Origin: Bacteroidia bacterium
GTDB taxonomy: Bacteria > Bacteroidota > Bacteroidia > JADZBD01
DNA: 64,000 bases
Assembly: GCA_020054095.1 (NCBI GenBank)
Contig: JAGVMA010000046.1
Location: forward strand, 1-64,000
Direction: 5' to 3'
In this document: positions 49,449 to 53,498 of the stretch, piece by piece
How positions within the stretch are numbered: position 1 is the first letter of the stretch
Layout: each line of letters opens with the position of its first letter
Made by a program: the position numbers and the translations under genes
The notes under the pieces: generated by a model
The model's database searches: none
What the model was told of the DNA's origin: nothing
The model's input: only the letters and a program-made list of their open reading frames with translations

Positions 49449-51908
49449 ATGAACGATAATTTTTTACCCGAAAACCTCCATTTGCATAACATTCCGGATG
49501 ATGATGCCGAGTTTATTCCATTGCTTACATCCGAGGAAGAAGACCAACTTAATGCAGAAAAGCTACCTGAAATGCTGCCAATATTACCGCTTCGTAATAT
49601 GGTTTTGTTTCCGGGTGTGGTTATGCCCATCACCGTAGGACGCGATAAATCAATTAATCTTATAAAAGAAGCCAATAAAGGCGATAAAACAGTGGGCGTA
49701 ATTTCGCAGCGAACCGATAAAGTGGACGATCCATCATTTGATGATTTATATAAAATTGGAACCGTAGCACAAATACTTCGTGTGTTGCGTATGCCTGATG
49801 GAAACACTACTGCTATTATTCAAGGTAAACGCAGATTTGAAGTGGTGGAGCCCGTTTCTTCCGAGCCTTATTTGGTTGCCAAAGTAAAACAGTTTGTTGA
49901 AACTAAGCCCGAACAAATCGATAACGAATTTTCTGCATTGGTAAGTTCGTTAAAAGATCATGCGCTTAATATCATTAAGCTATCGCCACACATACCAAGC
50001 GAAGCTACCTTTGCAATTCAAAATATTGAAAGTCCATCGTTTTTGGTGAATTTTATTTCATCGAACATGAATGCGTCAATAATTGAAAAGCAGCGCTTGT
50101 TAGAGCTTGCTGATTTAAAGGAGCGTGCCACACAAGTGCTCTCGCATCTTACCAAAGAAATTCAGATGCTTGAACTAAAAAACCAAATTCAATCAAAAGT
50201 AAAAACCGATTTAGATAAGCAGCAGCGCGAATATTTTTTACATCAGCAAATAAAAACCATACAAGAAGAATTAGGCGGCAATAGTTTTGAACAGCAAATG
50301 GAAGAATTAAAAGAACGAGCTAAAACTAAAAAGTGGGCAAAAGAAGTAGCTGATGTTTTCGCAAAAGAAATTAAGAAGCTTGAGCGAATGAACCCGAATG
50401 CTGCCGAGTTTTCGGTACAAACTAATTATTTAGAATTGCTTTTAGATTTGCCTTGGAGCGAATACACTACTGATAATTTTGATTTAAAACGTGCCAACAA
50501 AATTTTAAACCGCGATCACCACGGATTAGAAAAAGTGAAAGAACGTATATTAGAACACCTTGCAGTTTTAAAACTAAAAGGGAATATGAAAGCGCCAATT
50601 CTTTGCCTGTATGGCCCTCCGGGCGTAGGTAAAACTTCGTTGGGCAAATCGGTAGCTGAAGCACTTGGCAGAAAATATGTGCGTATGAGTTTAGGTGGTT
50701 TAAAAGATGAGAGTGAAATAAGAGGCCACAGAAAAACTTACATCGGTGCAATGCCGGGTCGTATTTTGCAAAATCTGAAAAAAGCACAATCATCTAATCC
50801 TGTTTTTATTTTAGATGAAATAGATAAAGTAGGTGCTGATTACCATGGCGATCCATCATCGGCTTTGCTCGAAGTACTTGACCCTGAGCAAAACAGCACC
50901 TTTTACGATAATTTTGTGGAACTCGATTATGATTTAAGCAATGTAATGTTTATTGCAACCGCTAATTCGCTTAACAGCATTCAGCCGGCCTTGCTCGATA
51001 GGATGGAAATAATAGATGTAACAGGATACACTACGGAGGAAAAACTACAAATTGCAAAAAAACATTTAGTCCCTAAGCAATTAGAAGAGCACGGAGTAAA
51101 ACCTCGCCAAATTAATTTTACCGATTCGGCAATTGAATATGTTATTGAAAACTATACGCGCGAATCGGGTGTGCGCGGGCTTGAGAAAAAATTAGCAAAA
51201 CTTATTCGTAATGCTGGAAAAAGCATTGCTACTAAAGAAAAATATAAATTAACGCCTACCGAAAAAGAGTTGACCAAAATTTTAGGTCCTGCTCACATAA
51301 AAGATAAATACCAAGGTAACGATGTGGCAGGTGTAGTTACCGGTCTTGCATGGACTCCCGTTGGTGGCGATATTTTATTTATCGAAACATCATTAAGCAG
51401 AAGCAAAGGGGGCAAATTAACGCTCACCGGTAATTTAGGCGATGTAATGAAAGAATCAGCAACCATTGCATTGGAATATTTAAAAGCACATAGCGATTTA
51501 ATTGGCCTTGCGCCCGATGTTTTTGAAAATTGGAGCATTCACTTGCATGTGCCCGAAGGCGCCACTCCTAAAGATGGACCAAGTGCTGGTATAGCAATGC
51601 TCACCGCATTAGCATCGGCATTAACGCAACGCAAAGTGAAAAAAAATATTGCCATGACGGGTGAAATTACTTTGCGTGGAAGAGTAATTGCAGTAGGAGG
51701 CATAAAAGAAAAAATATTAGCTGCCAAACGTGCTGGAATAAAAGAAATTATTTTAAGCGAAGAAAACCGTAAGGATATTGAAGATGTAAAACCTGAATAT
51801 ATAAAAGGTTTAACTTTTCATTACGTTACGCAAATGACCGAAGTGCTTGATTGTTCTTTGCTGAAAGAGAAAGTGAAAAATCCTGTAGATTTAAAAGTTG
51901 TAGCTTAG
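49449..51908 (+). CDS. lon: ATP-dependent protease La
   Basis: An 819-residue AAA+ serine protease that degrades damaged and short-lived proteins in the cytosol. The ATG at 49449 is preferred to the GTG one codon upstream. The N-terminal LON substrate domain (about 40-240) has LPILPLRNMVLFPGVVMPIT. Walker A is GPPGVGKTSLGKSVAEALGR and Walker B FILDEIDKVG. The catalytic dyad is Ser712 in KDGPSAGIA and Lys755 in GGIKEKILAA. Length and layout match Lon. The final 4 bp overlap the convergent lipoprotein gene. Confidence 0.97.
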   Translation: MNDNFLPENLHLHNIPDDDAEFIPLLTSEEEDQLNAEKLPEMLPILPLRNMVLFPGVVMPITVGRDKSINLIKEANKGDKTVGVISQRTDKVDDPSFDDLYKIGTVAQILRVLRMPDGNTTAIIQGKRRFEVVEPVSSEPYLVAKVKQFVETKPEQIDNEFSALVSSLKDHALNIIKLSPHIPSEATFAIQNIESPSFLVNFISSNMNASIIEKQRLLELADLKERATQVLSHLTKEIQMLELKNQIQSKVKTDLDKQQREYFLHQQIKTIQEELGGNSFEQQMEELKERAKTKKWAKEVADVFAKEIKKLERMNPNAAEFSVQTNYLELLLDLPWSEYTTDNFDLKRANKILNRDHHGLEKVKERILEHLAVLKLKGNMKAPILCLYGPPGVGKTSLGKSVAEALGRKYVRMSLGGLKDESEIRGHRKTYIGAMPGRILQNLKKAQSSNPVFILDEIDKVGADYHGDPSSALLEVLDPEQNSTFYDNFVELDYDLSNVMFIATANSLNSIQPALLDRMEIIDVTGYTTEEKLQIAKKHLVPKQLEEHGVKPRQINFTDSAIEYVIENYTRESGVRGLEKKLAKLIRNAGKSIATKEKYKLTPTEKELTKILGPAHIKDKYQGNDVAGVVTGLAWTPVGGDILFIETSLSRSKGGKLTLTGNLGDVMKESATIALEYLKAHSDLIGLAPDVFENWSIHLHVPEGATPKDGPSAGIAMLTALASALTQRKVKKNIAMTGEITLRGRVIAVGGIKEKILAAKRAGIKEIILSEENRKDIEDVKPEYIKGLTFHYVTQMTEVLDCSLLKEKVKNPVDLKVVA

Positions 51909-52141
51909 TGAGCTACGTACTTTTCGTTTTTTTCTAAATCCATATCGCAACTTTTACATTTGCCCGGTTCCATTGCATGGCCACACTCATAACCCATGGG
52001 GCATAAGTAGGCAGCATGTGCCGATGAATCTATTTTTACTTCGTTAGGTGCATCGGTAGGTTTGTTGCTTCCGCCACAGCTTGTGAAACAAAACAAAGCA
52101 GTAGCGAATAATACAGTGGAGAGGAGGATAGTTTTTTTCAT
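51905..52141 (-). CDS. Small lipoprotein with heavy-metal-binding domain
   Basis: A 78-residue protein with a lipobox (CFTSC, lipidated Cys22). Residues 45-71 read YLCPMGYECGHAMEPGKCKS followed by CDMDLEK. This matches the YHS/heavy-metal-binding domain found in copper-efflux membrane fusion proteins and P-type ATPases, with Cys, Met and His as ligands. A periplasmic role in binding copper or another soft metal is likely but inferred. It follows the HTH gene after 1 bp and probably belongs to an operon with it and the thioredoxin-like gene. Its 3' end overlaps lon by 4 bp. Confidence 0.82.
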   Translation of the reverse strand: MKKTILLSTVLFATALFCFTSCGGSNKPTDAPNEVKIDSSAHAAYLCPMGYECGHAMEPGKCKSCDMDLEKNEKYVAH

Positions 52142-52142
52142 T

Positions 52143-52514
52143 TTATTTTTTTGTTAATTCTTGTTGTAATTTTTTTATCAGCGCATCTTTTTCAAAAATA
52201 TCGAGTTTTAGTTTTGATATTTCTAATTGCAGCGATGCAATTATTCTTCGGTTATCAATTTCGTTATCGCCCCAAATATTAGTGGTGTAAAATGGCTCTT
52301 GCGAATAATCAAAACCCATATTAGGGTCGCGAAAAAAACTATAAAGCGGAATACGCAACTCTTTCGAAATTAATTCGAGTGTGCGTATTTCAATCGTGTT
52401 GGTATCAAATGCTTGATCTAATTCTACTTCAGAGATATTGAGGTATTTGGCTAAATCTTCATACGTATATTTTTGTGCCTCTATGAGTTTTAAAATTCGT
52501 TGCTTTAAATTCAT
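52143..52514 (-). CDS. Small HTH protein with C-terminal coiled coil
   Basis: A 123-residue protein. An N-terminal XRE-like helix-turn-helix (about 1-60; KYTYEDLAKYLNISEVELDQ) is followed by a linker and a C-terminal coiled coil (about 85-120; ISKLKLDIFEKDALIKKLQQ). It should bind DNA as a dimer. Its target is unknown; an obvious candidate is its own operon with the thioredoxin-like protein and the metal-binding lipoprotein. There is no peptidase or ligand domain. Six bases separate it from the thioredoxin gene upstream. Confidence 0.75.
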   Translation of the reverse strand: MNLKQRILKLIEAQKYTYEDLAKYLNISEVELDQAFDTNTIEIRTLELISKELRIPLYSFFRDPNMGFDYSQEPFYTTNIWGDNEIDNRRIIASLQLEISKLKLDIFEKDALIKKLQQELTKK

Positions 52515-52520
52515 GGTAAT

Positions 52521-53034
52521 TTATTTTACTTCTCCGCTAAATGTTTTTTGGTACTCGTCCCAAGGTATTGTTTTGTGAGCATCTTCGGCAAAATAATGCA
52601 AAACCATTTCCATCGTTTTTGCATCCATATAACCGGGTATGGCCTGTATTACGCTTAAATCTTCATCTACTATTACCGTAGTGGGATACGATAATTTATT
52701 GCTCAATAAATAGGATGCCAATTTATGTGTACCCGCAGTTGCTGAGTAATTAGTTCCGTTAAACTTTACAGCTTCTTTGCCTTCGGCATTAAATTTTATG
52801 GCGTAATATTTTTCGTTGGTATATCTTACAATCTCTTTGTTTTTGTAGGTTGACGCATCTAATTTTTTGCACCATCCGCACCAGTCGGTATAAACATCAA
52901 TAATTATTTTTCTCGATTTTTTTTTTATTTTCTGTTTGTGCATCATCAAACGTAAGCCATTTAATTTCTTCGCCTTTTTTAAATGTAAAAGCGGTGGCAG
53001 AAATTACCAACAACAGAAGTGCTATCTTTTTCAT
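52521..53034 (-). pseudogene. Thioredoxin-like protein with a frameshift at a 10-A run
   Basis: The gene starts at ATG 53034 with a signal peptide (MKKIALLLLVISATAFTFKK) and continues WLTFDDAQTENKKK. It then meets ten consecutive A bases on the minus strand (T-run at 52917-52926). In the present frame it stops soon after (KIEKNNY). Shifting by one base restores the thioredoxin fold: SRKIIIDVYTDWCGWCKKLD, with a CGWC redox motif, and the frame runs to 52521. With nine A's the protein would be about 170 residues. It may be a pseudogene, a homopolymer sequencing error, or a slippage-controlled gene. The product would be a periplasmic thiol-disulfide protein. Confidence 0.75.
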
Positions 53035-53060
53035 GTTCGCGATAAAAAACTGAAATAAAA

Positions 53061-53498
53061 TTAAACAATTTTATGAAGCACTACCGAGTTTAATGCTGAA
53101 ACTAATTCGCCATTATCGGTAGTGAATTTGTACCTCCATTTAACGGCTGCATGTTTTTTTTCCGCATTAGGTTTTATGGATAGTACTTTTACCTGCGCAT
53201 GCACAGGCATATCGGCAAAAACGGGTTTCAGAAATTTCCAATCGTTTATTTCCAATCCACATATTACAGTTTTGCCAAAAAGCGGAATCCATTTGGTGCG
53301 ATGCACCAAGTTAAATACGTGCGGACCGCTGGCGATTAAATTTTTGAAAAAACTTTGTTTCGCTTTTTCTTTATCAGTATGGAATTCAAGAGGGTCGAAG
53401 GACTTGGCAAAATCAATAATTTCCTGTTCGCTTAAAACAGTTTCACCAAAATCGAAAACATCGCCTACTCTAAAAGTGTTTAAATCTAATGCGTGCAT
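53061..53498 (-). CDS. MaoC-like acyl-CoA dehydratase (hotdog fold)
   Basis: A 145-residue single hotdog domain. FRVGDVFDFGETVLSEQEII at the start and IIDFAKSFDPLEFHTDKEKA carry the (R)-hydratase Asp/His type motif (Asp-x4-His, FDPLEFH). FKNLIASGPHVFNLVHR follows. It probably adds water to, or removes it from, an acyl-CoA or acyl-thioester. The natural substrate is not known. It overlaps the upstream peptide transporter by one base (TAATG), so the link to peptide uptake may be positional only. It is a shorter relative of the hydratase half of paaZ at 12925. Confidence 0.85.
   Translation of the reverse strand: MHALDLNTFRVGDVFDFGETVLSEQEIIDFAKSFDPLEFHTDKEKAKQSFFKNLIASGPHVFNLVHRTKWIPLFGKTVICGLEINDWKFLKPVFADMPVHAQVKVLSIKPNAEKKHAAVKWRYKFTTDNGELVSALNSVVLHKIV

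Follow-up and report, generated by a model that had tools for sequence, protein, structure and literature searches.

A gene for an exported thioredoxin-like protein, located on the minus strand of the analysed stretch of 64,000 nucleotides (the window), is divided into two coding frames that overlap at a run of ten adenines (A10) and lie one base out of register. The gene is broken, its relatives are intact and further damage is absent. Among the explanations considered, a real, recent and leaky lesion at a slippery run is the likeliest, at roughly even confidence, and an error in the assembled consensus comes second, as a possible but rather unlikely reading. The gene and its neighbours are arranged as follows:

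53061-53498, minus strand: MaoC-like gene, lying upstream of the thioredoxin gene and found close to it in 8 of 109 relative loci
52897-53034, minus strand: upstream frame of the thioredoxin-like gene; by translation 45 codons for a signal peptide and the start of the mature part, then a stop
52917-52926, minus strand: A10 on the coding strand (T10 on the plus strand), the point where the frames part
52869-52880, minus strand: codons of the CGWC active site
52521-52949, minus strand: downstream frame with the thioredoxin-like domain; counted from the earliest possible start codon, 142 codons up to the normal stop of the gene
52143-52514, minus strand: next gene, helix-turn-helix-like regulator recognized by eye, no Pfam match; adjoins the thioredoxin gene in 9 of 109 relative loci
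51905-52141, minus strand: small exported protein, weak match to a heavy-metal-binding domain (E=3.2e-4, below the Pfam cut-off); 2 of 109 loci have it close to the thioredoxin gene

The upstream frame begins with an ATG at 53034 and its stop codon ends at 52897; its signal peptide was called by eye, without a signal-peptide program. The distance between its start and the stop of the downstream frame is 514 nt, a multiple of three plus one, and the arithmetic of the original prediction, in which removal of one base yielded a protein of 170 residues, is therefore right. Coding-like codon usage was observed in both frames. The run is the only one of ten in the window, where nine-mer A/T runs are depleted (8 matches versus 26.8 expected from shuffles). 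A10 thus does not reflect an excess of runs, and it is notable for lying where two coding frames meet. The shortage of nine-mer runs fits the selection that has been described against runs of this kind in coding sequences (PMC1088944; this and the other papers below are cited from excerpts of their texts). A run of at least nine A or T at the point where two frames join, as is characteristic of slippage genes, is present in the form of A10, and this slippery tract lies within the gene, as is the case for contingency loci. Lesions beyond the first, the mark of a pseudogene, were found in neither frame by translation and by alignment to the homolog from G001, a genome of the same family, and the downstream frame is complete and could be aligned to its last residue. 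Since the offset is the sole lesion, the change is either recent, or tolerated, or not real.

The downstream frame matches the Pfam family Thioredoxin_2 (PF13098, E=2.4e-10, 41.1 bits versus a curated cut-off of 27) and carries the CXXC motif of the thioredoxin-like family as CGWC. Its nearest solved chain is 2kuc, a putative disulphide-isomerase (E=8.1e-6). With the unbroken protein of 188 amino acids encoded in G001 it shares 52% identity over 138 residues, with one length difference of 5 residues, and a weak alignment of the 45-codon piece was obtained to the N-terminus of this protein (E=3e-4 in a single comparison). The CGWC domain that had been proposed from the sequence is thereby confirmed. 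Judged by these matches, the gene, which is offset by one base at a slippery run, codes for an ordinary exported thioredoxin-like protein, predicted to be a thiol oxidoreductase. This protein shares a thioredoxin-like domain and the CGWC motif with the PF13098 family and 2kuc, but unlike in these, signal peptide and domain are in different frames here. A second close copy that might cover the loss was looked for in the same genome and none was found; the one other match, at 26%, lies inside a frame of 706 amino acids.

The genus is represented by this genome alone and the order by two genomes, which ruled out a comparison of strains among close relatives. The gene was compared in 109 relative loci, comprising 80 that were kept of 190 confirmed, G001, and 28 from a class-wide search. 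Downstream of the unbroken gene in G001 come genes for the same regulator and small lipoprotein-like protein, in unchanged order. In 79 of the 80 loci a start codon can be reached upstream in the frame of the domain without meeting a stop, the remaining locus being cut by a contig end, and in all nine loci with an adjacent regulator the thioredoxin frame is unbroken. The spacing between a Trp codon and the CXXC codons was readable in 105 of the 109 loci; it amounts to 26 codons (78 nt) in 88, to 27 codons in 15 and is longer in two. This genome has 79 nt, one base more than 26 codons, which together with the translations bears out what had been described earlier: the run, a pair of frames and their offset by one base. 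Within this stretch the longest A/T run of the relatives is 8, reached in three of them, and runs longer than 8 occur in none of the 105 readable relatives, so that neither the run nor the split is conserved. One relative, G136 (L122), has the same lysine stretch with an A8 that is terminated by G, and there the regulator adjoins as well. A fixed frameshift with further decay in relatives, which the original prediction had named as evidence against it, was not encountered.

The MaoC-like, thioredoxin-like and regulator genes (51905-53498 in the window) stay together in several Bacteroidia. Scans for promoters and terminators as operon signals gave results at chance level. The class-wide search returned a match in 345 of 395 genomes and none at E≤0.001 in 50. 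Among the matches listed, an in-frame stop inside the thioredoxin match was seen once each in G288 (C33:16931-17344) and G339 (C6:55353-55757).

A second gene of the same genome, dnaX, is split at a run of eleven adenines (L120:1413-3204, on C84). Its first frame corresponds to the gamma part of NCBIfam NF011531 (E=4e-211) and its second frame to the C-terminal part of this model (E=9.7e-26). For a survey of this site, 60 genomes of the class were searched with the first part, 58 matched, and the best-scoring 30 loci (L150-L179) were taken. The site was readable in 29 of these: 20 have A10, two have A9, six have runs of 4-7, and this genome alone has A11. The A-run is found where tau is encoded in one long frame as well as where it is split, and the split form was identified in five clear cases among the best 30 loci, including this genome, plus one that is cut by a contig end. 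G001 contains just three A10 matches in 3.3 Mb, one of which (C24:70728-70737) lies inside its dnaX match (C24:69620-70738). On sequence grounds, A10 at Bacteroidia dnaX is a conserved slippage element in a known slippage arrangement. Two-ORF dnaX with ten A has been described and ascribed to transcriptional slippage (PMC3711429, in the excerpted text), and in Thermus dnaX slippage occurs at nine A (PMC3711429; PMC1088944). In the excerpts of the literature searched, no statement was found of a ten-A run kept across Bacteroidia dnaX including the one-frame forms, which may still be published. The dnaX of this genome belongs with the two-ORF type. Like the two-ORF and Thermus dnaX genes, the thioredoxin gene has an A-run at the junction of two frames; however, in dnaX the run is conserved and both products are functional, whereas the run in the thioredoxin gene is not conserved.

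The genome is a draft assembly of 3.17 Mb in 87 contigs, and the state of its other long runs bears on a consensus error, according to which the gene would be unbroken in the organism and the assembly would have a wrong length at A10. The genome has 31 distinct runs of at least ten A (38 overlapping matches). By reading, 12 of them lie in unbroken frames and 5 at breaks, another 5 are close to the end and 4 close to the start of a gene, and 5 are intergenic or unclear; of the 17 runs inside genes, 12 are thus in frame and 5 broken. The broken ones are the thioredoxin gene, dnaX, two membrane protein genes with T10 (L092 and L114) and, less surely, a small gene with A11 (L090). All five are shifted in one and the same direction; nothing was drawn from this because lengthened runs are favoured when a census covers long runs only. 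In a codon-usage scan of ∼392 kb of readable sequence, 112 candidate junctions were obtained. Ten of the more doubtful ones were checked by translation and all turned out to be neighbouring genes, and the remaining junctions, other than those of dnaX and the thioredoxin gene, were set aside by reading the list (start of a second gene nearby, or one short weak side), which is weaker evidence. The only accepted breaks within a gene in the scanned sequence were those of the thioredoxin gene and dnaX. A generally poor assembly was rejected on these counts, and since most in-gene long runs are in frame and accepted breaks are few, errors would not be general. It also speaks against a consensus error that dnaX is split in other genomes of the class. 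That every relative with the same gene order is unbroken, that the thioredoxin gene has no further decay and that all accepted breaks of the genome are at runs of at least ten are what such an error would produce. In addition, the dnaX of this genome is one A above the commonest length, which a systematic error in the length of long runs would equally give. A consensus error is kept as a rather unlikely second explanation.

The two membrane protein genes (L092:1056-2445 and L114:952-2422) are multi-pass and seemingly split at or near T10. Codon usage switches frame near the run in both; in L114 shorter runs nearby could equally contain the break. No Pfam or NCBIfam match was obtained for the pieces, and that each is a single gene is therefore suggested by frames and codon usage. 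The small gene (L090:1300-1700) lies near a contig end and is possibly split at A11, for which the evidence is weak.

Mutation can be rapid at a run of ten that lies towards the 5′ end of a gene whose product is exported. Phase variation, in which rapid changes of run length in the population would switch the exported oxidoreductase on and off, is nevertheless improbable, as the run is absent from this site in all readable relatives and dnaX, which is not a contingency gene, is among the genes broken elsewhere in the genome. Similarly little credence is given to a broader proposal, namely that Bacteroidia might use RNA-polymerase slippage at ten A class-wide, fixed in dnaX, and that this genome might be recruiting more genes, the thioredoxin gene included, to make short and long products.

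The split could also be kept for two useful products, through programmed slippage or an internal start. One product would be the exported enzyme, the other either a short peptide or a domain made in the cytosol from the ATG at 52946. The architecture resembles that of mxiE, tssM and two-ORF dnaX (PMC1088944, PMC4256274, PMC3711429, as far as excerpted), and a pair of ATG codons lies just upstream of the run in the frame of the domain. Run and split are conserved in no relative, however, and are absent already at family distance, which leaves this reading as a whole very unlikely. As neither the run nor the break is conserved, we find no support in the sequences for programmed use or phase variation of the thioredoxin gene. 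A dead gene whose decay is just starting is scarcely probable either: the 50 genomes of the class in which no match was obtained indicate that the protein can be dispensable, but a second lesion is absent from both frames and a run of ten would leak.

The leaky lesion is favoured by the unbroken gene in the same order in G001, the spacing of one base over the 26 codons of most relatives, the lysine stretch of G136 with its run ended by G, the slippage context of dnaX with A11, and the two membrane genes broken near T10 runs. According to this explanation, a one-base change hit the only close copy in the genome of an exported thioredoxin-fold protein with predicted thiol oxidoreductase activity. 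An A-run of lysine codons would recently have changed its length by one base, for which replication slippage is the simplest cause, and this would have placed the CGWC domain out of frame with the signal peptide. RNA polymerase would slip on such a run and bring part of the mRNA back into register, so that some full-length exported protein would be made besides much 45-residue peptide, as suggested by the dnaX of the same genome and by published cases. The lesion would thus be leaky and adventitious and not a programmed switch. Should the break be real, slippage of RNA polymerase on runs of this kind means that the complete protein is probably still produced to some extent. In E. coli, A-runs are reported to make the polymerase slip less than T-runs do, and insertions to be favoured over deletions (PMC6260861), and the rescued fraction may therefore be low. 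Ribosomal -1 frameshifting was rejected as the means of rescue, as going from the upstream to the downstream frame takes a step of one base forward and not back. The interpretation offered by the original prediction holds in part: slippage as a leaky rescue gains from its context, the A11 of dnaX and the A10 at most Bacteroidia loci examined, and phase variation has no specific support.

Comparable breaks are described in excerpts of two reports. In Blochmannia (and Buchnera), genes are frameshifted at poly-A/T tracts and rescue by transcriptional slippage has been proposed, with dnaX among them (PMC3017870). As in the thioredoxin gene, one indel in a long A/T run is found there in a gene that is otherwise in frame; those genomes are of reduced symbionts, whereas the present one has 3.17 Mb and comes from a single species. 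In tssM1 of Citrobacter rodentium, slippage and the need for both products were shown experimentally (PMC4256274). A stop just past an A-run, of eleven in tssM1, and an out-of-frame continuation downstream are common to both genes, but the split of tssM1 is backed by experiment and by its presence in a second species and that of the thioredoxin gene by neither. Since rescue at such runs has been published (PMC3017870, PMC4256274), the thioredoxin break is best regarded as another example of a phenomenon already known. Taken by itself, an additional gene with a break at a long A-run carries little weight. For annotation it advises caution, as genes broken at long A-runs are probably leaky and not dead, and with dnaX as a built-in positive control this genome offers a natural test case for slippage rescue outside insect symbionts.
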